Shown in pieces: positions 10,442-37,122 of a stretch of DNA of 45,000 nucleotides. Source of the DNA: Tubiluchus corallicola. Taxonomy: Eukaryota; Priapulida; Priapulimorpha; Priapulimorphida; Tubiluchidae. Position 1 is the first letter of the stretch. Each line of letters opens with the position of its first letter. The notes under the pieces are model-generated. The model saw only the letters and a program-made list of their open reading frames with translations. It ran no database searches and was not told the DNA's origin. A program made the translations under genes and the position numbers. Location of the stretch: NCBI GenBank assembly GCA_030141605.1, contig JAQGDQ010001281.1, positions 1 to 45,000 of the forward strand. Reading direction: 5' to 3'.

Positions 10442-13400
10442 ATCTCCTCCTCTCTCTCTCTCTCTCTGTCTCTCTCTATCTCTCTCTCTTGCTCTTTCTC
10501 TCACCCTCTACTTCTCACTCACTTAATGAACTACACATATGCTATGCTGTTACTTATCCCAAACTTAGAATTTAAACAATTATTTTCAGTACTTAGTGCC
10601 CTAGACAACTGTCTAGTTATAGAGCAGGCCGTGTTTACGATAAAGATTTACTACCTGCATGATCGAACTTTATCAAAGATGTTCTGTTGTTAAACTTCCG
10701 TTAGCTGTCTGAGCGTTTTAAACTAAGCGTTTCCATAACACTTTATCAAAGATGCTCTGTTGTTAAACTTCTGTTAGCTGTCTGAGCGTTTTAAACTAAG
10801 CGTTTCCATAACACTTTATCAAAGATGTTCTGTTGTTAAACTTCTGTTAGCCGTCTGAGCGTTTTAAACTAAGCATTTCCATAACACTTTATCGAAGATG
10901 CTCTGTTGTTAAACTTCTGTTAGCTGTCTGAGCGTTTTAAACTAAGCATTTCCATAACACTTTATCACAGATGTTCTGTTGTTAAACTTCTGTTAGCCGT
11001 CTGAGCGTTTTAAGCTAAGCGTTTCCATAACACTTTAACAAGGATGTTCTGTTGTTAAACTTCCGTTAGCCGTCTGAGTGTTTTAAGCTAAGCGTTTCCA
11101 TAACACTTTAACAAGGATGTTCTGTTGTTAAACTTCCGTTAGCTGTCTGATCGTTTTAAACTAAGCGTTTTCATAATTTCAGGAAGATCAAGAATTTGAA
11201 GAAAAAGTTCGACTAAGAATGACAGCGGTGAGTTGAGATGGTTTTCCACAAACTGTTTTTGAATTACAACTAGCTTTTTGAGCGGAAATGCGTCAGTGTG
11301 GCATATCCTGGTACATTGTGTCTATTTTTATGATAAATTAGTTGCTTAGATCTGCCCTCGTAATAGATCAATGTGTAAAGGAAAGCTGTTTTAAATAGTG
11401 ATTTTGATTAAACTGGTGATTAAATTATTAAATTAGTAATTCAAGATTAAATGTAAGATGAAACTATCGCCGTGGCTAGAAGCCCAGTTAGGTGTGGCAT
11501 CACATGATCAGCTGATGTCCGACCGGCTGACCCAGATGTAAAGATTGATGATGTAATCCTTATGCGCAGAAGCTCATGGCGCATTGGGTAGTTAGACAAA
11601 AGTGTTTTGAGGCCCGCACCTCGGGGGAGATTAGGAACTGACTTGAAGACGGAGGGCTGGCATTACTATCCTCTTATATTTACCGTGTTGTGTTTGATGT
11701 TTAACAAATGTGTAGTTTATTAAATAAAGTCTTGATAGTTTGCCATGCCCATCGTGGCTGTTTCACATGCCACACAATAAACAACAATAATCAGCAAGCA
11801 GCTTTAACCACTATAATAAACAGACTCTAACGCAACCACTATACCAATTACTTTACTCACCTCGTATTAATGAATAGTTTGTAGATTTTATTATTTTTGT
11901 TGCTTCCAAACCAAAATCGTCCATAAGTCGGCATACTTTAAACTACGTTATGATGCTTCAAAGTAGAAGGTAGCAAAAACGTGGTCAAATGTTAGTTTCT
12001 TATTTTTTACAAAAACAAACAAAAGCTAAATATATTGGACTTTTATATTCCGGTAGCAAATTATCAGGAAAATGTTGAAAAATACCAAAACCCTAATTTT
12101 ATAAGGCCCTGCCCAGTTTTCTGACTAAAAACTAGTAATGTTTTAAATTGCAAAAAGCTCATATTTTCAAACTCCAAGTAGCTCGTGGAAGCGGTCATTT
12201 TGCTTCTGTCTTTTTCTGTTGCCAAGCCCAGATCTTCGTCAGCAAGAGCCATCTACTTAACTGCTGTGTGGACTTGCTAATTCCATAGCAACCAACATTT
12301 GTGCGGTTGCTAAGTGTTTTGTAGAAACGCAATAAAAACAATGGCTGACTTTAACAACGATTTTCTCAAGATTATGTTTTTCAGTGTGCAGCCTGCACCT
12401 CAACTTCAATGTGGATTATCTCAGCTTAGAAATAACATAGAGTGATGAACTTGGTATCAAAATGATCCTCATGAAATGGAGATTCAGGATATGTGAATAA
12501 CTAGAAAAGCTTAATAGCCGATTTATGGACAATTTTGCTCTTTGCAAGCACATATTTACCGTTGTACCTAATTACCCTTCAATAGGCTATTTATCTATTC
12601 ATGCATCTTGAATGGCTATCTAGGCTTCTGGTGACATTTATTTATTTTCTGGACAACCTGTATTAAGATAAGTTAATATTATATCTTACCAAGTGCTATG
12701 CTATGTCCTTGTGGCTCTTTGTCAAGCATATTCTGTAGTCTCAGTATAAAGGTGCAATTAACTTATGTAGTGTGTGACATCATAAATGTTTGTGACAGTG
12801 TTCCCTCGCTACTTCCCTCGGGCGTGGAACGGAACACCTGCGATAAGTGAGGGAACACTGTATATCAAGTGAAATCTCACACGTACTTTTCTCATTGTAT
12901 CGTGTATTAACCCTTGTTACTAAAACATAGCTAGCCTAGTAGTAGACTATGTAGTAATGTAGTCGGCCGACTCATCTGTACTTTGCAAATGTAACTTACT
13001 AATAGAATTAGTGCGGCAAATTTGCTCTCGTATTACAAAAAATTATGCACTTTTTGAGAAAATTGTGAAATTTCTAACATAACTAGGGACACCCTATGTT
13101 GGTAAGTGCATTGAATATGCTGTTTTAGGGCTACCTTTGTCTGCAAAGTTATGACGATTTTTGAGAGTTTTGCCATCTTCGATGGTGGCCATTTTGAAAT
13201 TGATTTCTGACAGCCCTCAAAGATTAAACCTGATTTCCTTCCTCAGCGAAATGAAACATTATGATATTTCTTAGTTCCTTAACCTATGTTACAAATTTCC
13301 CTAGTTTTCTCAAAAAGTGCACAATTTTTCTGTTTATCTGTTGTACAAAATGTTCACATGCTTTGTTCTTTGTTCTCTTCTGTTACACACGTCTACAATG

Positions 13401-16400
13401 TATAAATCAGCAATGCTAAAATTTTCAAGTGGCTCAAGTTGTCAATTCCCCACGCACAAGGAATTAGTTCGTAAAACGGATTAGGATTTGGGTTAGGATT
13501 GGGATTAGGGTTAAGGTTAGGATTAGGGTTTGGTTTAGCGATAGGATAAGGGTTAAGGTCAGGATTCGGGTTTGGTTTAGCGATAGGATAAGGGTTAAGG
13601 TTAAGATTCGGGTTAGGTTTAGCGATAGGATAAGGGTTAAGGTTAGGATTCGGGTTAGGTTTAGCGATAGGATAAGGGTTAAGGTTAAGATTCGGGTTAG
13701 GTTTAGCGATAGGATAAGGGTTAAGGTTAGGATTAAGGTTTGGTTTAGGTTTAGGGTGAGGGTTGGGGTTAAGGTTAAGGTTAGGATTAGGGTTTGGTTT
13801 AGGTTTAGGGTGAGGGTTAAGGTTAAGGTTAGGATTAGGGTTTGGTTTAGGGTTAGGGTGAGGGTTGGGGTTAAGGTTAAGGTTAGGATTAGGGTTTGGT
13901 TTAGGGTTAGGGTGAGGGTTGGGGTTAAGGTTAAAGTTAGGATTAGGGTTTGGTTTTGGGTTAGGGTGAGGGTTGGGGTTAAGGTTAAAGTTAGGATTAG
14001 GGTTTGGTTTAGGGTTAGGGTGAGGGTTAAGGTCAAGGTTAGGATTAGGGTTTGGTTTTGGGTTAGGGTGAGGGTTGGGGTTAGGGTTAAGGTTAGGATT
14101 AGGATTAGGGTTTGGTAGGTAGGGTGATGGTTAGGATTAGGGTTTGGTTTAGGGTTAGGGTGATGGTTAGGATTAGGATTTGGTTAGGGTTAATGATAGG
14201 GTATTTAAATTGTGTGGGGAATTGTAAACACCTTTCAAATTTATTTGTGTCTGTCAACAAAGGTTAGGTTTTTGAATTTGGGACAGAATTTAAGCATCAG
14301 TCCAGCTCTTCCATCTTCACTATCAAACAATTACAAATAATTTAAACCATTTTCATTTGTTTTCAACAGTTACATGACTTACTCATCACATTTTGCTGAA
14401 TATTTTAACACTAGCGTACAAAAAATTACATACTGACCTATATTTTGTTTTTCCTATTACCTATTTTTATCTATTTTTGTTCTAGTCTCAAGCACCAGAC
14501 TTTCAGTGTTTTGCATCTGGTCATTTACGAGTCGTCCACTTGACAACACGACAAGAAATGGTCGCCGGTAAAATGTAAGCAAATTATAGTTCGGGTATTT
14601 TCTTCAGCAATCGTGAATTTTACTAAATATTTGCGTCGCACCGAGCCTTTGTTCCAATTCGTGAAAATGCAAATGTTTGTCTTTGCAAAGTGTCAATGTT
14701 TATATCTTATATAACCACCGTGCTGGACTCGTTTCTTGTACATTTCCGGAAATCACCGCAACCGTCTCCGTATCGGTAATAATCTCCTGTTTCTTACATT
14801 TGTTATTTAGATTATCTGCAAATATCACATTTGTGCAAATAATTAGTTAGTTTCAACTCTTCCACTCTGAGCAGCAAAATATTGGACTGAATTCGACTCA
14901 GGGGGTCGAACTCCAAGATGGCATGGCGGTCTTGATATTGCGCATCATGAAGTTCCATTTTACTATCGTTGTGTAACAGATTACTTAACTACAAATGTTA
15001 ATGTTAATTACAAATGTTATGTTAATTAACTAAGTTAATGTCTGTAAACTAGTACCATATACCTTTTATAGCATGTCATTTAACTCTCATAAAATAAAAT
15101 ACACAAAAACTACACTGTACGAAGCTTATTATCAGCACTAATAAAAATAGGGAACAAAATACACACACAAAAAATAACTAACTAACTCAGTAACAGCACT
15201 GCACCCGAGGAGCACCTGTGTCAGAAATCAAGGTTGTAGTGACCTCTACACGCTTTTATACTGGCATTCCAGGTCAGCTGGCTTCTCACACCACGTGTAG
15301 GCCCAAACAAGACGTCTGGACCTACAAGAAAGAGGTGAGTCGCTGCTGACGTGGAAGCAGGGTGTATAGAGGGCCCTACACCTGACCCGACACAGGTAAC
15401 AATATCTTAAACAAAGTACGGGACGTACTTTTGTGACGGGAACACAAAAGAATTTCCTTCATAGCGTACGGTGTTCTCAGAAATCTTTATTTCTGTATAT
15501 ATAAAAAATGAAAATAATAAATTTGACTCCTTTCACTGCTTACAAATGTATAATGATCTAATTATTATAATTTAAGACAATAAAAGTAAATATTACTCAC
15601 ATCGTGCGGCGATAACAACTTAATACATCCTTGGGACGTCATACTGGTTTACAGCAAATCAGGTAAAGACGCTACAAATAATTGCTTGAAAATTTATCTA
15701 AACATTATTTAACGTTTGCTGAGGCTTCTGTGAGCGTGTTTAGCGAGGCACAACCTAATTTGCAAGTTCACAGGTAAAATTACAGGTAAGTGCACCTTAA
15801 CAAGTACTTTCCTGTGAACCATTGCCATTATTTGGGATGTATCCGCCTCTCAGTGCCCGTTTTATTCCAAATACTGTAGTTAAACCCAGTCATACTTGCC
15901 TTCAATGGTTTTATTTCGTTTAATTGATTTTAGCTGCGAAGTTTTTGCAATATTCATGGTGTAGTAGTCCCAAGCAACTGAAAATAAAGCTGAATTGAAT
16001 TGACAATGTTTTGTCGGGAAATGGTTGCAAATAATTTTGTTCAAAGTATGAATTTTGGTTGATAATGGTCTTGTACTAACCGTTTTCTTGCGCAAAAGTT
16101 TTCTCTGCTGGCAAGTTAGGATGCCACAAGTTTTTAGTAACATGGTAAGTGTTTGGTGCAGTGGTAGAACAAAATGTGTTTTTTTCTTGCATAGTCTGTT
16201 AATGTTATACAGTTGGTGGTCAGGTAATGCTCGATGATCACGGTGTATTCTGACCAACTGTGCTGTTGTGCATCAAATGTGAACAAGTTCCCATAGTTCG
16301 ATAATAAAACAATAACTAAAACTCGTACTGTTGACAGTAAACCTAGGCTCGTACTGTGAGCAAATTACTGGCAGTAACCTAGACTCATACTGTGAGCACA

Positions 16401-19400
16401 TTATTGGCAACAACCTAGACTCGTACTGTGAGCAAATTATTTGCAGTAATCTAGACTCGTACTGTGAGCAAATTATTGACAAGATCCTAAACTATTGATT
16501 GGTAACCATTTCCTGGCAAAACAATTTAATTCAATCGCGCTTTAATTTCATTCGCTAGGACTACTACCCATGGAATGATTTTGTTTTGGAAAGCTACTTT
16601 GATGTAAATGAGAAGATAAACAAAATGCCTATGTCCATGTCTATGTCCATGTCTATGCCTATGTCTATGTTTATGTCTGTGCCTATGCCTATGTCTATTT
16701 TATGTCTATTGCAACTTCTCTATGTCTATGCCTATGTCCATGTCTATGCCTATGTTTATGTCTATGCCTATGTCTATGTCCATGTCTATGTTTATGTCTA
16801 TTGCAACTTCTCTATGTCTATGCCTATGTCCATGTGTATGCCTATGTCTATGTCTATGCATATGTTTATGTCTATGCCTATGTCTATGTCCTTGTCTATG
16901 CCTATGTTTATGCCTATGTCTATGTCCATGTCTATGTTTATGTCTATTGCAACTTTCATAATTACATTTGCAAAAATAGGTAACTCTATTTCTATGCTTA
17001 ACTGTAGTTGCTAAAATTCTATATTCTGTAATATTTTTCACCTTGCATTTTATATTACACGTCTAACTAATAACCTGTAATTTTTCAATGTTTCAGACAG
17101 GGAAAGTCGTATAATCCAGTTCTGTTGACCAATCCACCATCAGACAAGCTGTGGTTTACACTCTACTTTGACGTTAGTCGTCTATCCCATGATTGTCAAG
17201 GTATGAACTACAATTCGCAAGGTCAGTGAAGACCCTCGTCCAGGTTAAGTGCGTGGGTGGTAGACGTGACAGGCTTACAGCTGTTCGAAGATTTTGTGGT
17301 CACGTTGTAGGGACCCCTTCTCTTTTCTTGTCATTGTTGCAGTTGGTTTACGTTGATGTTCTGTGTGTGCGTTGTATTACGTATGTGTTATGTCCGTAGT
17401 TATCACATTCACATCTAAGGTTGGCAGTCAATGTGACCGCCATCACTGTTCGCCCCCCCCCGGGAAAGTTTGACCTGGCTCCTTCTCTTTTGTCATTGTT
17501 GAAGTTGGTTTACGTTGATGTTCTGTGTGTGCGTTGTATTACGTATGTGTTATGTCTGTAGTTATCACATTCACATCTAAGGTTGGCAGTCAATGTGACC
17601 GCCATCACTGTTTCCCCCCCCCCCCCCCCGGAAAAGTTTGACCTGGCTCCTTCTCTTTTCTTGGCATTGTTGCAGTTGGTAGACGTTGATGTTCTGTGTG
17701 TGCGTTGTATTACGTATGTGTTATGTCTGTAGTTATCACATTCACATCTAAGGTTGGCAGTCAATGTGACCGCCATCACTGTTCGCTCAAAGGAAAAGTT
17801 TGACCTGGCTCCTTCTCTTTTCTTGGCATTGTTGCAGTTGGTAGACGTTGATGTTCTGTGTGTGTGCTTTATATTACGTGTTTTATCACTTTAACATCTA
17901 AGGTTGGTTAGTCAAGGTCACTGGCTCCCCGCCGGGAGAGTTTGAAGATAGTGAGTAGGGACCGGGTCTGTCTTGAAACAAACGGCTAGCAATTAGTGGT
18001 CAGTCAGGAAATAAAACATATGTACTTGTACAATAATTGCAGTGTTAACGTTACCAGTGCATTTTTAAAACAGAATAATGCAATATGTGCTGCCTTAATG
18101 CATCAAATTAACTTAAAGAAGTTGTTGATAAAATAAAAATTGGCTGTGTGCAAAGTAAAAAAAAATCGTTGTTAAAATGAAACAGTGTGACGTTAACTGA
18201 AGAAAAGGCGTTAAATGTTCAGCGTTGTTAAACGAAACATCGCTAAACGGGGAGTCGTTAAGCGAGGTCTTACTGTATTCACTTTACACTTGTCTTACGC
18301 GTGTCTTACACTTTGCATGTCTTACTGTATTCACTTTACACTTGTCTTACGCGTGTCTTACACTTTGCATGTCTTACTGTATTCACTTTACACTTGTCTT
18401 ACGCGTGTCTTACACTTTGCATGTGTTACTGTATTCACTTTACACTTGTCTTACGCGTGTCTTACACTTTGCATGTCTTACTGTATTCACTTTACACTTG
18501 TCTTACACGTGTCTTACACTTTGCATGTCTTACTGTATTCACTTTGCACTTGTCTTACACGTGTCTTACACTTTGCATGTCTTACTGTATTCACTTTACA
18601 CTTGTCTTACACGTGTCTTACACTTTGCATGTCTTACTGTATTCACTTTACACTTGTCTTACACGTGTCTTACACTTTGCATGTCTTACTGTATTCACTT
18701 TGCACTTGTCTTACACGTGTCTTACACTTTGCATGTCTTGCTGTATTCACTTTACACTTGTCTTACACGTGTCTTACACTTTGCATGTGTTACTGTATTC
18801 ACTTTACACTTGTCTTACACGTGTCTTACACTTTGCATGTCTTACTGTATTCACTTTACACTTGTCTTACACGTGTCTTACACTTTGCATGTCTTACTGT
18901 ATTCACTTTACACTTGTCTTACACGTGTCTTACACTTTGCATGTCTTACTGTATTCACTTTACACTTGTCTTACACGTGTCTTACGCTTTGCATGTCTTA
19001 CTGTATTCACTTTACACTTGTCTTACACGTGTCTTACGCTTTGCATGTCTTACTGTATTCACTTTACACTTGTCTTACACGTGTCTTACTATATTCACTT
19101 TACACTTGTCTTACACGTGTCTTACTATATTCACTTTACACTTGTCTTACACGTGTCTTACTATATTCACTTTACACTTGTCTTACACGTGTCTTACTAT
19201 ATTGACTTTACACTTGTCTTACACTTGTCTTACACGTGTCTTACTATATTGACTTTACACTTGTCTTACACGTGTCTTACACTTTGCATGTCTTACTGTA
19301 TTCACTTTACACTTGTCTTACGCGTGTCTTACACTTTGCATGTCTTACCTTGCAAGTCGGCAGAATTTTCATTTAAATCACGATGTATCCATCCAAAGGT

Positions 19401-22400
19401 TTCATGACTTGCTTTCTCACACCACTTTAAATAATTTGGGTGGTGTTTGCTCTTAAATAAGCAGCTCTCGCAGTGAATGCTTCCTGTTATCAGGAATTGA
19501 GCGACTTGCCATTTGATTTGCATAATTGGGTTCACAAAACTCTGCCCCTCAGTGCAGCATTTTTATCTGAAGCAGAAAGATTATTTATCAGCAACTAGCA
19601 GATAGTAGTTCAATTACTGACCAGAGTTTGCATTGTTTAACTTTTGAAGTTTGGCAACTGAAGTTTGAAGCAACATTATTTGCATCAAAACCAGGCATAA
19701 TCTACTGCACGTATAAGCGCTAATATAATTACGAAATTTTCATATTAAATAGTATCATTCGTCAATTTCTGGCAATAAGCTGTTTCGCAGTTTAGTCATG
19801 CACATGCGCAGTTGCTGTAGGTCAGTGGTTACCAAAGTAGGGGTAAATTACCCCCCGGGGTAATATGTTTTTTTTTTACGTGGCTTTACATAATTATGTC
19901 TACGAGTAGGGCGATTTACTATCAGGATCTTGTTCGAGAACAAGAAAAAATGAACTAGGTAAGGTTCTAGCTATTAAACTGTTACTATTACAGTAGCACG
20001 GGCTGCGAGGCGTTGTCAAGTGTACACGTATGCTTTGACTGGTACACTTAACCTTTGACCTTTTAATGTTCATGATCAATCACTGGAACTGTGAAAAGGC
20101 TTATTGGTTAAGTAAGGCAAAGAACGAAATGACAGTCAAATTTTTGAAAAGAGGTAAACTCAGTAGTAGCAGCAATAAGCCCAATTAACAATTAGTCTTA
20201 TAATTAGCAGGTGAGAGCGCATCAGATGTGAGATACGCACTGTTTCCCAATCTGGACAAAGAAGCCATGTCCTCTGATTTAATGATATTGCAAGCAGACT
20301 TGTACGAACCAAGCGGCGGACTGAAGTGTAGTCAGCTAATTAAACACCGTTGGACACCAGCAACTGTCATGAAAAGGGTAAGCTGCCTTTAAAGGAAAAG
20401 TCAAGCTTTCTGGGAAGTCGGGCTTATTTCAAAGTTAGGGGAAAATGTTAGAAGGATTTAGTAATAAAAGTGAAGTGTAGTCAGCTAATTAAACACCGTT
20501 GGACACCAGCAACTGTCATGAAAAGGGTAAGCTGCCGTTAAAGGAAAGGTCAAGCTTTCTGGGAAGTCAGGCTTATTTCAAAGTTAGGGGAAAATGTTAG
20601 AAGGATTTAGTAATAAAAGTGCGATAGGCTCCCCCTGTAATTAGCAAAATCACTTAGAAGTCATGAAGTAAAGCTTGAGTGCTGCTATTTTGTACACTCA
20701 TTCTTCCACCAATGATGTCATTCGCCAACTGAAGAAAAGCAGTGCACTGTCAACTTCTGTCAAAAGTGTGATAAGTTCTTACAAAAACGAATAGAGTTTG
20801 TGCAATTTTTCATGATTATTAGCTAAGCTGCAGAAGTTCGAATTATCATAAGCAGTGCATGCTTACGAAAAGTCGTGACGCGCCTACGAAAAGCGTGATG
20901 CGCCTACGAAAAGTCGCGATGCGCCTACGAAAAGTCGTGATGCGCCTACGAAAAGTCGTGACGCGCCTACGAAAAGTCGCGATGCGCCTACGAAAAGTCG
21001 TGATGCTCCTACGAAAAGTCCTGATGCCCCTAAGAAAAGTCGTGATGCGCCTACGAAAAGTCCTGATGCGCCTACGAAAAGTCGTGACGCGCCTACGAAA
21101 AGTCGCGATGCGCCTACGAAAAGTCGTGATGCGCCTACGAAAAGTCCTGATGCCCCTAAGAAAAGTCGTGATGCGCCTACGAAAAGTCCTGATGCGCCTA
21201 CGAAAAGTCGTGATGCGCCTACGAAAAGTCATGATGCGCCTACCAAAAGTCATGATGCGCCTACCAAAAGTCATGATGCGCCTACCAAAAGTCCTGATGC
21301 GCATACGAAAAGTCGTGATGCCCCTAAGAAAAGTTGTGATGCGCCTACGAAAAGTCCTGATGCGCCTACGAAAAGTCATGATGCGCCTACGAAAAGTCAT
21401 GATGCGCCTACCAAAAGTCATGATGCGCCTACCAAAAGTCCTGATGCGCCTACGAAAAGTCCTGATGCGCGTACGAAAAGTCATGATGCGCCTACCAAAA
21501 GTCCTGATGCGCCTACGAAAAGTCCTGATGCGCGTACGAAAAGTCATGATGCGCCTACCAAAAGTCATGATGCGCCTACCAAAAGTCGTGATGCGCCTAC
21601 GAAAAGTCCTGATGCGCCTACGAAAAGTCGTGATGCGCCTACGAAAAGTCGTGATGCCCCTAAGAAAAGTCGTGATGCGCCTACGAAAAGTCCTGATGCG
21701 CCTACGAAAAGTCCTGATGCGCCTACGAAAAGTCCTGATGCGCCTACGAAAAGTCGTGATGCCCCTAAGAAAAGTTGTGATGCGCCTACGAAAAGTCCTG
21801 ATGCGCCTACGAAAAGTCATGATGCGCCTACGAAAAGTCATGATGCGCCTACCAAAAGTCATGATGCGCCTACCAAAAGTCCTGGTGCGCCTACGAAAAG
21901 TCCTGATGCGCGTACGAAAAGTCATGATGCGCCTACCAAAAGTCCTGATGCGCCTACGAAAAGTCCTGATGCGCGTACGAAAAGTCATGATGCGCCTACC
22001 AAAAGTCATGATGCGCCTACGAAAAGTCCTGATGCGCCTACGAAAAGTCGTGATGCGCCTACGAAAAGTCGTGATGCCCCTACGAAAAGTCGTGATGCCC
22101 CTAAGAAAAGTCGTGATGCGCCTACGAAAAGTCCTGATGCGCCTACGAAAAGTCCTGATGCGCATACGAAAAGTCCTGATGCGCGTACGAAAAGTCATGA
22201 TGCGCCTACGAAAAGTCATGATGCGCCTACCAAAAGTCATGATGCGCCTACGAAAAGTCCTGATGCGCCTACGAAAAGTCCTGATGCGCCTACGAAAAGT
22301 CATGATGCGCCTACGAAAAGTCATGATGCGCCTACCAAAAGTCATGATGCGCCTACCAAAAGTCATGATGCGCCTACCAAAAGTCATGATGCGCCTACGA

Positions 22401-25400
22401 AAAACCTGATGCGCCTACGAAAAGTCATGATGCACCTACCAAAAGTCATGATGCGCCTACGAAAAGTCATGATGCGCCTACGAAAAACCTGATGCGCCTA
22501 CGAAAAGTCATGATGCGCCTACGAAAAGTCCTGATGCGCCTACCAAAAGTCATGATGCGCCTACGAAAAGTCATGATGCGCCTACGAAAAGTCATGATGT
22601 GCATTTAATAATTTTTTCAGTACATCTTTCTAAACGTGTCCGTGTACGAAGGAGTATTTTCATGCGGTGAATTGTATAAAGGAGTTTGGATGGTCAGCTT
22701 GAGACAGGTATGTACAATCTTCATTTGAAGATTACTGATTACAATAATTTTTGTGCATAGTACATGACATTGGTACTTACTGTCATAAACTAATTACTTG
22801 ATTAATATTAATGGGCAAATTAATTAATACTAGAAGTTGTTCAACAAGTAATCTGAGTAACTGGCTGTGTGATCATCAGATTTTTGTAGGTAATTATCGC
22901 TAAAAATACGTCAAAAGAAACCGGGGCCCGGTTCCGCAAAGCTGTTACGAACTTACGATGTCGTTTTTAATAATTAAATGAATGTAACGATGCCGTCGTT
23001 AGCTTAGTGACAGCTTAATGAAACTGGGCCCAGATATTAAATTTATTATTAATAATTTAAATTTATTTCATACATTTAAAAGTATGTAGCATTATATAAA
23101 AATGCTACGCAACGTAAAAATAACAATGTGTGTGTAGCATTTAATTGTGGCTTGCATAGCAAAATCGTCCACAAGTCGGCAATTAAGCTTGTCTAATTAT
23201 TCTCACATCCCAAATCTCCATTTCACGAGGATTATTTTGATACCAAGTTCATCACTCTATGTTATTTCTAAACTGAGATAATCCACATTGAAGTTGAGGT
23301 GCAGGCTGCACACTAAAAAACATAATCTTGAGAAAATCGCTGTTAAAGTCAGCCATTGTTTTTTGTCGCATTTCTACAAAACACTTTGCAACTGCACAAA
23401 TGTTGGTTGCTACGGGCTTTGCAAGAACACATTGAAGTTCCATTTAAATCCAGTAGATGGCTCTTCCTGAGGAAATCTGGGCTTGGCAACAGAAAAAAAC
23501 CGAAGTAAAATGACAGCTTCTACGAGCTACTATCGCAATTCGAAAATGCAATTTTTTTACAATTGGATTTTTAGTATTTTTGAACAGTTTCTTGATTCTT
23601 TGATGCTAGAATATAAAAGGCCAATATATTTAGCATTTTTTTTCGTAAAAAAAAACAAAAAAATCGACATTTAACCAAATTTTTGCTGCTTTGTACTTTG
23701 AAGCATCGTAACGCAGTTTCAACTATGCTGACATATGGATGGTTTTGGTTTGCAAGCACACACATATGTATAACTTTAATAACATTTAAACACACTTTGA
23801 AGCTGTTTAGAATTTTCTAGAATGCATACTGCCGATATTGTCATGCGTGCTCCAGTCTAGGCTCCAGTCATAGGAAACCGATAAATTAATCTTGTAGAAT
23901 CCGTAGCAGAATAAACGCACGTTTAAACTCACGAACCACTTTTCAAATTTGCACATTTATGCTTTTTCTGTATTTCAGAAGTCGGTGAGAAACCCGTTTG
24001 TATATGAGCGTACAATTCATATACGAGACGCTGACATGATGTCAAGAAAGTTTGATTTAAGAAGTAAGTGGGTGAATACTTTTGCACCTCGCTTAACAAC
24101 GTTAGTGCATTGTATATAAACACGTCGTTAAAGGAAAACTGGACGATTGTTTAGACTCAATCTCATTTTAATTTACTGTCCAAAATATAAAATATTCTTG
24201 CCTATAAAAGTTAGTAATTGTTTCTTATATTTTAATTGCTTACGTCAGAAACAGTTTGTGCAATGGCAGGCATCTTCCCTTGCTCGTCAAGCACATTTGC
24301 GTAAGTGTTACTGTTTAAATGTGTGATGTCACGAAAATTGGCTCTATGTCATATGGCGTCAGAAACTAACACAGCAGTTCATGATCATGCTTATCACGGT
24401 ACCACCTTCTATTTGTCGGCCACCTGCATGTGACAAAAAAGCTCCGTTGCCAATCTTAGTAGATTCACTGAGCCGCGCGTAGCTTTGAAAGTTTAAAGAA
24501 ATTTGAGTATCCGAGGTAATTATTATTTAATCTAAGCTTTGATCTAAAAAGAGCTATTGTAGTTTTCAATATTTTAGAGCATTGTTTATTCTGAACTCGT
24601 GTTTACACAATCATCCGGTTTTCTTTTAAGGGAAACAGTTATATGAAAAAATGCCTTTCATATAAACCTTGTAAAAGCATTCAGTTGTGACTCCCACGCG
24701 AAGATCAATAATGCCTGGTACCAGTGGTGGCTAGTAATTAAAATTACTGGGGGTGCTGCTTCAGAAGATTCTTAGCCATTGTTTTAATACTGTGTATAAC
24801 GAAACAAATATGTTTAATTTTAATGTTGTAAATTTGTAATTATTAATTTAAATAAACAAGCATAGTTTATACATAAACTTGATAAAATCCTAAACCAAAA
24901 TGTTTTGTGCTTACGGAGAGCCTAAACTGCCGCAATTCAAGAATATGCCAGTACACGGTTTTGTGCACCGCTACTGTGTGTGAGCAACTGACAGTACACA
25001 CTGCGTGAGAGACAGTACTTTCTCTGCCTAACAGCAGATGCTAGCAGTGCAGCGTACTGCGTGTCATCTCAGACAAATGCGCACAACAGCCAAACACACC
25101 ACTGTGCTGGGCTGTGAAGCAAACAGTACTACCCTCACGTGCTCTGCACCGTACAAATATGAAGAAAGAACTAACGAAAAAAGACTTATTATATTGAGCA
25201 TTATCAATAATATCGAGTTAAAATAGGGGGTGCTGCAGTTCCACGGTACCTATACACGAGCCTCCATTGCCTGGCTATGCACAAGTGATCACTGAGTTGC
25301 CCTGCAAGGCAAAAATTAATAATACTTGGCTCATTATTACTAATAAAATGAGTGCAGCAAACAAACTTTCAGAGCTTACGCATAAAAACGAAACAAGCGT

Positions 25401-32959: not shown

Positions 32960-33237
32960 TTAGTGGCGGTCGATGTTCCTACTGAAGAATTTTTTCAAAA
33001 CGTCCAAGCAAAGCATTTTGTAGAACAATTTTCGAAGCTTTTTGTTTTTCCAAGCATAAATTATCGGGTTCATAAATGAATTGTTGTACATTAGTACAAA
33101 AAAGATACTGGCAGTCTGGGAAGATACGAGTCCATTTTGCGTGACAATGATCATTCTGATACTTACTATAGTTATTGGAAAATAACAAAAAATGAAAGTA
33201 CCAATGACTAGAGCAATAATCTTGACTGATTTCCAGG
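32960..33237 (-). CDS. GPCR 3' coding part (TM6-TM7)
   Basis: Continues in frame after the insert: WKSVKIIALVIGTFIFCYFP, then TM7 with NPIIY, a basic helix 8 (KNKKLRKLFYKML) and a tail ending NIDRH at 32963, stop 32960-32962. Confidence 0.6.
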
Positions 33238-33743
33238 CTGCATAAGATTATGGATATCCATAAAACAAGACCAAAAATCCATAAAATAAAATTTGAAAAA
33301 TCCATAAAATAAGAAATGCATAAAATAAAAAAATATTTTTTTTGTGATTTTTTGTACAAAATAAGGCAATCAAAACTGAATACAGGCATTGGATCGAAAA
33401 CTTCAGCCTAGAGGGCATTCTACATTCGTACCAAATAGACGAATTATTTGAATTGAAGTGATGAATTACAAGGCATTGTCTCGTAAAATTTGATTAAATT
33501 TGAAGTGATATGAAACCGATAAAATTAAAACGAAACCCATCAAATTAAAACTGCGTCCTGTGTGTTTAAAAACACGTTTCAAGCCTCCTGTTTTTACTTT
33601 TTAATTGATTTCCCCCTGGGCATCTCGTTCCAGATATAGTCTATTTCTTATTTTATTGATATCCATAAAATAAAATTTCAAAAATCCATAAAATAAGCTA
33701 TTTCATTTATTTTATACATATCCATAATCTTATGCACCCTGCA
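33234..33743 (-). mobile_element. MITE acting as candidate intron in the GPCR
   Basis: The ends are inverted repeats: CAGGCTGCATAAGATTATGG at 33234, and the reverse complement of the right end, CAGGGTGCATAAGATTATGG, at 33741. The match continues as ATATCCATAAAA / ATATGTATAAAA. Flanks CTGATTTC (33226-33233) and GTGATTTC (33744-33751) look like an 8-bp target duplication. ATCCATAAAATAA-type motifs repeat inside. On the minus strand a GT at 33737-33736 and an AG at 33239-33238 lie inside the terminal repeats. Removing these 500 nt joins the coding parts in frame. Confidence 0.7.
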
Positions 33744-34510
33744 GTGATTTCACATTATGCTTGAATGATCCTGCTGCATTTGGTTCAATCTGTCGCATGT
33801 GCTTTCGAGCAATACATATAACGTTTGCATTTACAACCAGCAAAACTGCTGTAATGATTACACAATATATAAAACTCAGAATAATGAAATTCTGATTTGA
33901 AAATGCACAGCTATCCTTCCAGCTGTCTTGGAGATATATCACGGCGCTTAGACCAAGTGACTGCAACCACAAAACCACAATAGTAAGCCGAACTACCCAT
34001 TTTCATCAGTAAATTGTACCTTAGTGGGTATTTTATGACAATAAAACGGTCTATTGTAACAGCCAATAATGTTGCCATTGACACGTAACTAAAAACTGAG
34101 GAAATCTGATACAATAGTAAACAGTCACCTTCTGACAACGTGTTATATTGATAGTGGAGTTTATATGAAAGAACGTGCAGATACAATCCTGTTAACAAGT
34201 CTGCCACTGCGAGATTACATATATACCAGTTCTTATACTCTTCCATGTGCTTGTACTTCACAAGAGCTATAATAACTATCAGATTAGTTAGCACAATAAA
34301 TGCTGCTATGATATTTTTCACAACATGAACTACATAAAAAATATATTGGTATTGCCAAGTGGATATGTGTCCATCTGATTGATTCCAGTTGTTGTATGAT
34401 GAATTTTCTATGATAGTCTGACTGTCACAATGTATGGCTAACCAGTTTATAAGTAATATAATCAAAATAGTATGTGACATCTTCCAAGTTGGTGTTTGTT
34501 GTTCGTACAA
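33739..34510 (-). CDS. GPCR 5' coding part (TM1-TM5), frameshifted at TM4
   Basis: First frame 34510-33911, second frame from about 33950 downward. All expected class A landmarks from TM1 to TM5 are present on either side of one extra base in the TGGTCTAAGCGCC stretch. The part ends at ...KSLQ plus one base (33738), next to GTGCATAAG. Confidence 0.6.
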
Positions 34511-36057
34511 CGTAAAGTATTTTACAATCAGTTTGTAGATTGTATTTTCGTTAGCTCTTTAACAAAGGCACAACTGCAATTATAGTTACAACACAGTTAC
34601 ATTACTTCGTTATTCACATTGAAAGAAATAACTACCATAATAGTAATGTAAAGTATTATTGCCCAGTGTGTCAGTTAACAGCTTTAATTACCCCTATTTT
34701 CTGCAAATGCCTTTTAATGGGCGCTGATGTAGAATTTAATTTGTTTACTTATTTGCATAAATCTACAAAGCTTACCTTTATTAGCCACTTTCAGAAACTG
34801 CAATGGTAGCAGTGACAGTTTGTTAGGGCATTATATTAATCAATGTTGGGTGTTAACATACTGTCATGCTTTCATCCAACTAAATGTGAATCGAAGGAAA
34901 CTTGTGCATGACTCATGACAAATTTAGTCCAAACTATTAAAAAATTAAAATGTGAAAATTTTAACGAGAATTTGAAACTTTTAGACATGTTAGAAATCCT
35001 TTAGGTTAATTTTTGTTGTAAATGAGTGAAAGCCACCTTCAATCCACATTAAATATAGCAGTGCCAGATAACCAATAATTGTATAATTTGTTCAGATGAG
35101 ACAGATATAATTTATGTAAGTACTTATTTGTGTAATTTAGTAATTTATGTAAGTACAAAAGCACATGACAGCATATCAAAAATAGCCATAAAACATATGA
35201 ACTCATTTTGTCAAAACAACATAGGAGAAAGTTCAATTCATTTTTCACGCACATTTCTTGCTCAGCTCTATAAAGTGCAAGGCAGCTAAAATACCTGAGC
35301 ATTAATATTTTCTTCTGTGTTATTATCTCCACTTAAGAATAAAATAATTAAGGCTGACATTTAAATTATCTGGAATTGGTGCTAGTATTAGTGGTCTAAC
35401 ATTTACACACTTTTTCAGTGTAGCACGTAATTACTAGTAGATCGTTTTAGACAACCACTCAAGAAAGAAACAAAAATTGTTCAAAATTTTTTGCTTGGGT
35501 TCCCAAATTATTTTTTCTGCACAGGCACTGCAACACATTTATTTCTTGCTTTGCAGATTTGGACGCTGTCAGTTTGTTTCCATCGCACTTGCTTCTGGTT
35601 TTCGTAAGTGTATTTGTTGCTTTTATTATCATTTTATTTTGCTGATAATGTTATTGCTTGTTGAAATTGACTACTGTCATTTTAGCTATCTCTTTTACCG
35701 AGATAAATGCTATGAAAGTTGTTAAATCTAAGATAAAAGCGAATATTACTTATGAAAAAGAAAATAAACTGGTGATTAAAATTTAATGTTAAAACATTTT
35801 TGTTTAATGCATTTTTAACTTTTTGCATGAATGGCACATTAAAATAACTTGAAATCAATGAGATTTGGGTGTGACTGTAAGTGAAGGCAAGATTTCCGCT
35901 ATTATCAGCACGGGTAAGGAATTTGCAAAACATTTTTGTTATTGATTTTTACTTTCAGTTCACTGGCTTTTAACAAACCTCTGCTGTAAGATAATTATTC
36001 CGACTGGCCAGTATTGATCAGTTTAGGTTTACTGCAGTAAGTTTAACTGCATTTACG
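34511..36057. other. Intergenic between GPCR and NDRG gene
   Basis: AT-rich. Divergent promoters of the GPCR (minus) and the NDRG gene (plus) must lie here, but no clear TATA or initiator can be assigned. A possible 5'UTR acceptor (GTTTAGGTTTACTGCAG, to 36034) precedes the NDRG start. Short ORFs at 35039-35332, 35477-35725 and 35682-35933 are unassigned. Confidence 0.35.
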
Positions 36058-37122
36058 ATGGAGCGTCTCACAGATATCGAGTTGGTTGGGATAAACGTAC
36101 AGGAAACTCAGGCCAGGGCTTACGGAGTAGTTGGCGAAAAGATGATAGGAGACGAATTCGTGCACACTTCCTTTGGCAGAGTTCATGTTGCTGTGCAAGG
36201 CACTAAGGGCAAGCCAGCGTTGATAACCTGCCATGACATTGGACAAAATTATTTATCCTGTTTTGGAGGCTTTTTCAGTTATCGTGATATGGAACCTATG
36301 CTTCAGAATTTCTGCATCTACCATGTTGACGCTTTGGGACAAGAGGAAAATGCAGAACAGCTGCCGGACAATTTTACTTATCCAACTGTTGACCAACTTG
36401 CAGAAATATTGTTCACGATCACTGAGCATTTTCAAATCAAACGCTTTGTTGGTTTTGGTGTAGGCGCCGGTGCCAGCATTCTGTGTCGATTTGCTATCAC
36501 TTACCCACAAAAGATGGATGGTTTAATTTTGATAAATGGTGTGGCAGGTCAGGCTGGTTGGATAGAATGGACGTACCAAAAGATCAGCGCTTGGTATCTA
36601 AAAGGTAAAAGCATGAATGAATTCACGCAGGATTACCTGTTGTGGCACCACTTTGGCAAGGAGACACTTGAATTGAACCATGACTTGTTAATGGCATTTA
36701 AGGAAAACTTGCAGAGGCAGAATCCATTTAATCTGTCATTTTTCATCAATGCTTGGGTAAATCGTACTGACCTACACATCTATAGATTGACAGATGCTGA
36801 GAAAAAGAAGAATCCTGTTCCCATTCCGGCTCGCGCTATCAAGTGTCCCGTTCTTCTGGTAACCGGAGTGACGTCTCCGCATGTAGACGACACCGTGGAT
36901 TTAAACTCCAGATTGGAGCCGTCGCTGGCGAACTGGATGAAGCTGTCCGACTGCGGTGGTATGGTGTTAGAGGAGCAGCCCGGAAAAGTCTGCGAAGCCC
37001 TTATTCTCTTCCTGCAGGGAATGGGTTACGTACAGCATGTAGGACACGTGAAGCCGGCTGGATTATCAACTCCGTCAAAACGACCTTTCTTGGAAGATAG
37101 TAACAAGCGAGTGATTGCTTAG
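36058..37122 (+). CDS. NDRG-family protein, intronless
   Basis: 354 codons, a typical NDRG length. NDRG proteins have an alpha/beta-hydrolase fold without catalytic activity and act in stress response, differentiation and trafficking in the cytoplasm. Family landmarks: FGRVHVAVQG (39-48), CHDIGQN (58-64), HVDALGQ (89-95), YPTVDQLAE (108-116), GVGAGAS (134-140, the nucleophile elbow with Gly instead of Ser, as in NDRGs), LFGKE-like HFGKETLE, FINAWVNRTDL, CPVLLVTG, LSDCGGMVLEEQP, FLQGMGYV and a Ser/Thr/Lys-rich tail. The start has A at -3 and G at +4, and an in-frame stop lies ~70 nt upstream. There is no intron in the whole coding region, unlike vertebrate NDRG genes, so a retrogene origin is possible; the frame is fully intact. 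Confidence 0.95.
   Translation: MERLTDIELVGINVQETQARAYGVVGEKMIGDEFVHTSFGRVHVAVQGTKGKPALITCHDIGQNYLSCFGGFFSYRDMEPMLQNFCIYHVDALGQEENAEQLPDNFTYPTVDQLAEILFTITEHFQIKRFVGFGVGAGASILCRFAITYPQKMDGLILINGVAGQAGWIEWTYQKISAWYLKGKSMNEFTQDYLLWHHFGKETLELNHDLLMAFKENLQRQNPFNLSFFINAWVNRTDLHIYRLTDAEKKKNPVPIPARAIKCPVLLVTGVTSPHVDDTVDLNSRLEPSLANWMKLSDCGGMVLEEQPGKVCEALILFLQGMGYVQHVGHVKPAGLSTPSKRPFLEDSNKRVIA

Follow-up and report, generated by a model that had tools for sequence, protein, structure and literature searches.

A hAT-like MITE in a GPCR gene copy, most likely a young pseudogene, from a tandemly amplified family without introns in a priapulid

The stretch of DNA analysed here (the window) covers positions 1-45,000 on contig C1138 in the priapulid Tubiluchus corallicola; the genome searched comprises 343.5 Mb in 2344 contigs. 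The minus strand of the window carries a rhodopsin-family GPCR gene (32960..34480), with the ATG at 34480 and the TAA at 32962-32960. The joined receptor protein, which was given an X at the frameshift site as first placed, matches PF00001 in Pfam with E=3.4e-32. No close orthologue of the receptor was found among the best 120 of 380 proteins, where the match with the top E-value shows 27% identity over 91%. The gene is continuous in its paralogs, whereas the window copy is split by an inserted element and is 2 nt short upstream of it.

Several other features lie in the same window. An NDRG-like protein is encoded at 35995-37122 (plus strand) in a single uninterrupted frame, so that it may be a retrocopy or a gene that lacks introns, and its best match is an NDRG3-like protein of Priapulus caudatus (61% identity). 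Three further stretches (13393-14183, 18201-19407 and 20823-22492) contain long ORFs that are built from short tandem repeats in several frames, and these look like satellite arrays, not genes. A search of the window against Rfam returned no matches at the gathering score.

The inserted element is a non-coding hAT-like MITE of 508 bp (33234..33741, minus strand), whose first letters are CAGGGTGCATAAG and whose last letters are CTTATGCAGCCTG, and it interrupts the GPCR gene before TM6. Its inverted ends are about 24 bp long: the 5' terminal inverted repeat reads CAGGGTGCATAAGATTATGGATAT (33718..33741, minus strand), and the 3' terminal inverted repeat reads ATATCCATAATCTTATGCAGCCTG (33234..33257, minus strand; CAGGCTGCATAAGATTATGGATAT when inverted). 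The element is flanked by a near-perfect target duplication of 8 bp, the upstream copy being GAAATCAC (33744..33751) and the downstream copy GAAATCAG (33226..33233), both on the minus strand. Seven of the eight letters agree once a 2-nt filler, TG, is set aside; the filler is located between the target duplication and the element end (33742..33743, minus strand). An insert of about 510 bp with inverted ends and 8-bp flanks had been recognised in the preliminary description of this DNA, and both the coordinates and the letters agree with it. No frame of at least 100 aa was found inside the element, and one stop-to-stop frame of 142 aa extends from the element into the GPCR gene.

The element is not a chance arrangement of letters, given that its 20-nt end, at up to 3 mismatches, has 445 matches in the genome (211+234) versus 63 (30+33) for a reversed control, and that at least 39 other places are 92-98% identical to it (among the best 40 of 198 candidates, the window included). 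This bears out two earlier expectations, namely that related ends would be present elsewhere in the genome and that the insert is a DNA transposon. The family is estimated at about 190 copies, (445-63)/2, because the end pattern fits both ends of one copy. After five duplicates, the second orientation of L029 and one partnerless end had been dropped, 77 distinct insertions were read; these cover 77 of the approximately 190 estimated copies and a minority of the 445 end matches. The 8-bp duplication is perfect in 40 of the 77 insertions, has one mismatch in 16 and two or more in 21. Its centre is AT in 36 of 39 perfect rows (with L029 counted twice), and likewise in GAAATCAG of the window copy.

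The MITE family is young. Among 44 aligned rows of similar length, 37 differ from the majority sequence by 0.8-3.9% (substitutions), the window copy being separated from it by one indel and 10 substitutions (2.0%). The remaining 7 rows are more than 20% from the majority, one of them being an orientation artefact. The commonest 24-mer at the 5' end is shared by 34 of the 44 aligned rows, and the commonest 3' end by 31. Apparent fillers of 1-6 nt, read by eye from the flanks and in some cases ambiguous, are seen at L002, L010, L018, L027, L031, L039, L041, L051, L059, L077 and L078, as well as at the window copy. The MITE insertion at three of the loci (L013, L014 and L015, on contigs C2263, C2262 and C2196) is one and the same, and it lies in a 3.5-kb stretch that is identical among these contigs; this represents either a segmental duplication or redundant assembly.

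CAGGG-like ends are typical of hAT elements. An 8-bp target duplication is also described for hAT in one published account (PMC3942097). Taken together, the 8-bp duplications and the CAGGG-like ends suggest that the MITE family is of hAT type. The hAT dimerisation domain (PF05699) is found at no fewer than 114 places in the genome among the best 150 of 236 candidates, several of them in ORFs of more than 600 aa. ORFs of 649-891 codons with hAT domains occur at C539:188446, C2237:83879, C2278:114946 and C390:8487, and at other places too; these long-ORF loci are candidates for potentially active hAT elements.

The history of the insertion site can be read from closely related genes. The window GPCR has at least 12 tandem paralogs in two arrays, seven on C1518 and five on C1525 (from the best 40 of 231 candidates). 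These paralogs (L079-L090) lie at C1518:74567-90790 and C1525:1126-12490, with starts 2.2-3.2 kb apart, and are 87-90% identical to the window copy upstream of the insertion and 78-81% identical downstream. Two short fragments are also present near C1525:7045-7247. The insertion site is uninterrupted in all 12 fetched paralogs, four of which read GTGAAATCAGT and eight of which are close variants; therefore, the insertion is derived and specific to the window copy. A search for the empty site in other GPCR paralogs had been proposed as a check, and the site was found in every one of these 12. None of the matches scored (best 40 of 231 candidates) was a second allele of the window copy. The divergence of the window copy from the paralogs peaks at alignment columns 800-900 (mean 31.7%), between TM6 and TM7. 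A gene-conversion border at the insertion was considered and dropped, since the divergence climbs gradually and its peak lies past the insertion, which is at column 730.

The element is not the only lesion in the window copy. At 34003-34000 (minus strand), the window copy, as assembled, reads AAAA; each of the 12 paralogs carries six letters at this place, all of them A in 10 cases. This 2-nt deletion, located by alignment of the 12 paralogs, shifts the reading frame before TM4, so the receptor protein is broken whatever becomes of the element. The paralog alignment replaced an initial placement of the frameshift, as a T insertion in TM4, by the deletion at 34003-34000. The missing 2 nt might be due to slippage, in life or in assembly. 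The assembly looks accurate: in two comparisons, copies of duplicated stretches match at every one of 3509 bases, and in a third they differ by 29 substitutions and 1 indel over 2710 bases, though the identical stretches may stem from the same reads.

Over the stretch compared, which begins just after the A of the start codon, 10 of 12 paralogs have an open coding frame; the two exceptions, both affected in the C-terminal tail, are L085, with a stop, and L087, with a deletion of 1 nt. Compared with each of the 12 paralogs in turn, the window copy has a dN/dS of 0.38-0.48; among the paralogs the median is 0.51 (66 pairs). Given that the values for the window copy are not above those between paralogs, the window copy was constrained for most of its history. 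It also contains no stop when read in the paralog frame. The past constraint and the absence of a stop weigh against a dead copy, and mean that a loss of function, if real, was recent. With the element and the 2-nt deletion in its frame, the window copy is most likely a young pseudogene.

A hypothetical GT-AG intron of 500 nt (33238..33737, minus strand) can be drawn within the element from sequence only. The candidate donor, AGG/GTGCAT at 33737, is contained in the 5' terminal inverted repeat, and the candidate acceptor, an AG ending at 33238, in the 3' repeat. The presence of GT and AG in the element ends and the excision of exactly 500 nt had been pointed out in the preliminary description, and are correct in letters and coordinates. 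Joining at these dinucleotides gives ...KHNVKSLQAWKSVKIIALVIG... in one frame through TM5-TM7. The associated claim of an in-frame removal holds for this part of the receptor, from TM5 to TM7, but does not extend to the gene as a whole, where the frame is already broken at 34003-34000. The few extra residues that were expected after excision would amount to six, LQAWKS, by comparison with the uninterrupted paralogs.

The GT and AG are both present in 74 of the 77 insertions, where they are letters of the inverted repeats. Because these letters are constant across the family, they show no adaptation to this particular site. A clean insertion leaves 8 + 4 + 4 = 16 nt after GT-AG removal, and causes a frameshift; at the window copy the filler TG raises the residue from 16 to 18 nt. 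No translatable message would be obtained by splicing at these sites, as clean insertions leave 16 nt and the window copy leaves 18 nt but has its frame broken upstream. Selection of the filler to restore the frame is an unneeded assumption, since fillers are seen at about eleven other copies.

Could the element nevertheless be removed as an intron in this one gene? The insertion might be spliceable by chance, with the GT at 33737 and the AG at 33238 in use, a receptor retained with LQAWKS added, and the 2-nt deletion being an assembly error; there would then be one fortuitous intron and no introner family. Besides the GT-AG ends, this would fit with the spliced joint, which is open for 88+92 codons and is the longest GT-AG joint among the 77 insertions, and with the paralog frame without a stop and the dN/dS of 0.38-0.48. 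On general matrices, not this species' consensus, the acceptor AG is at the 89.6th percentile of the 2785 AGs of the window, but the donor, which has no G at +5, is mediocre: it ranks at the 84th percentile among 2440 GTs on the strand and is outscored by three other GTs in the listed stretch 33753-33266. By U1 pairing (-4.7 kcal/mol), however, the same donor ranks first among the 20 GTs of that listed stretch. The RNA of the element and its flanks has a predicted fold of -121.8 kcal/mol, versus -102.3 +/- 5.8 for shuffles, and in this predicted hairpin the donor and acceptor pair together, which counts against their use; such pairing could either hide the splice sites or draw them together.

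Two further points stand against a chance intron. The two letters that would have to be an assembly error here are present in 12 of 12 paralogs, and an estimated one insertion in six would have a suitable orientation and frame by luck. Overall, a spliceable insertion of this kind is unlikely, and the element is probably not spliced efficiently. That a hAT MITE with GT and AG in its inverted repeats gave the receptor a new intron, with six residues added before TM6 and the filler (by chance or selected) keeping the frame, is judged to be quite unlikely; if true, an intron gain in an animal would have been captured here together with its empty site in 12 paralogs. As a general matter, an intron reading of the element is possible but unsupported.

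The preliminary description had proposed an introner-type intron gain, and this proposal is not supported. In a true introner family, the MITE would make introns wherever it lands in exons. It would be in keeping with such a family that both splice dinucleotides lie within the element and are conserved to the extent given above, and that published introners may hold both sites and add element and duplication letters to the mRNA (PMC9860276). However, the 16 nt left by default after a clean insertion break the frame, the window gene bears a separate frameshift, and among the 77 insertions (out of about 190 estimated copies) just that of the window could be placed in a host gene; the test behind this count would miss insertions in short exons and is weak evidence where these are concerned. 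The test, applied to 73 rows, looked for a frame open across the insertion point for at least 75 codons, with at least 20 on each side. Combined with Pfam, and with flanks of about 0.5-2.5 kb, it misses coding exons that have no Pfam domain and short exons between ordinary introns. None of the 15 other open-frame rows (12 loci) has a Pfam match above the cut-off, and two have sub-threshold matches (E 0.089 and 0.084). At L092, the MITE lies in a frame that is open for 50+64 codons once the empty site is restored and for which there was no Pfam match; by eye, the frame resembles a LINE reverse-transcriptase fragment. On the 77 insertions read, a true introner family is highly improbable. That the MITE came to fill an older, ancestral intron can be dismissed almost entirely: nothing was found in its favour, the site is uninterrupted in 12 of 12 paralogs and its flanks bear the 8-bp duplication type of the MITE family.

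The explanation that accounts for the locus, and which is held with considerable confidence, is that a hAT-type MITE was pasted into one copy of an intron-less tandem GPCR family, a copy that is now most likely a young pseudogene. A non-autonomous hAT MITE was pasted at the border of the third intracellular loop and TM6 of the tandemly amplified receptor gene, probably by one of the genome's own hAT transposases. The insertion duplicated 8 bp, leaving the 2-nt filler at one end. The element and the separate upstream 2-nt deletion together leave the copy, as assembled, without an intact coding frame, and it has presumably lost its function; the GT and AG at the element ends are inverted-repeat letters. 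As it stands, the event is an ordinary one, in which a young MITE has entered a single gene of an amplified receptor family. Its main value is as a clean test site, since one genome holds the occupied site, the empty site in twelve paralogs and an estimated 190 or so sister insertions.

The insertion can be compared with three known systems. Like hAT MITEs, it has an 8-bp target duplication, CAGGG/CAGGC inverted ends and no coding capacity, and its genome contains hundreds of similar ends as well as hAT transposase domains. It differs from them in that the target core, nnnATnnn, has not been assigned to a described hAT group, and in that no autonomous partner with these ends was identified among the loci examined.

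Introners are families of similar introns in which the similarity reaches near the splice borders, and most of them are DNA-transposon-like; in one Aureococcus family, both splice sites lie within the element and 12 nt (4 + 8) are added (PMC9860276). The window's MITE is likewise short, non-autonomous and of DNA type, has inverted ends and a target duplication, and has both splice dinucleotides inside, as does the Aureococcus case. In contrast, a clean insertion of this MITE adds 8 + 8 = 16 nt, which is not a number of whole codons, and no series of introns with these ends is seen among the 77 insertions. No report of introners in priapulids was found in the literature searched.

The third system is maize Ds1, which is reportedly spliced from exons, going by the titles of work by Dennis (1988) and Wessler (1991). 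Ds1 is similar in that a small hAT element whose ends offer potential splice sites lies within an exon. For Ds1, by those titles, splicing was observed; the window gene differs in bearing another lesion. Because maize Ds1 is on record, the splicing of a small hAT element from an exon is mechanistically possible.
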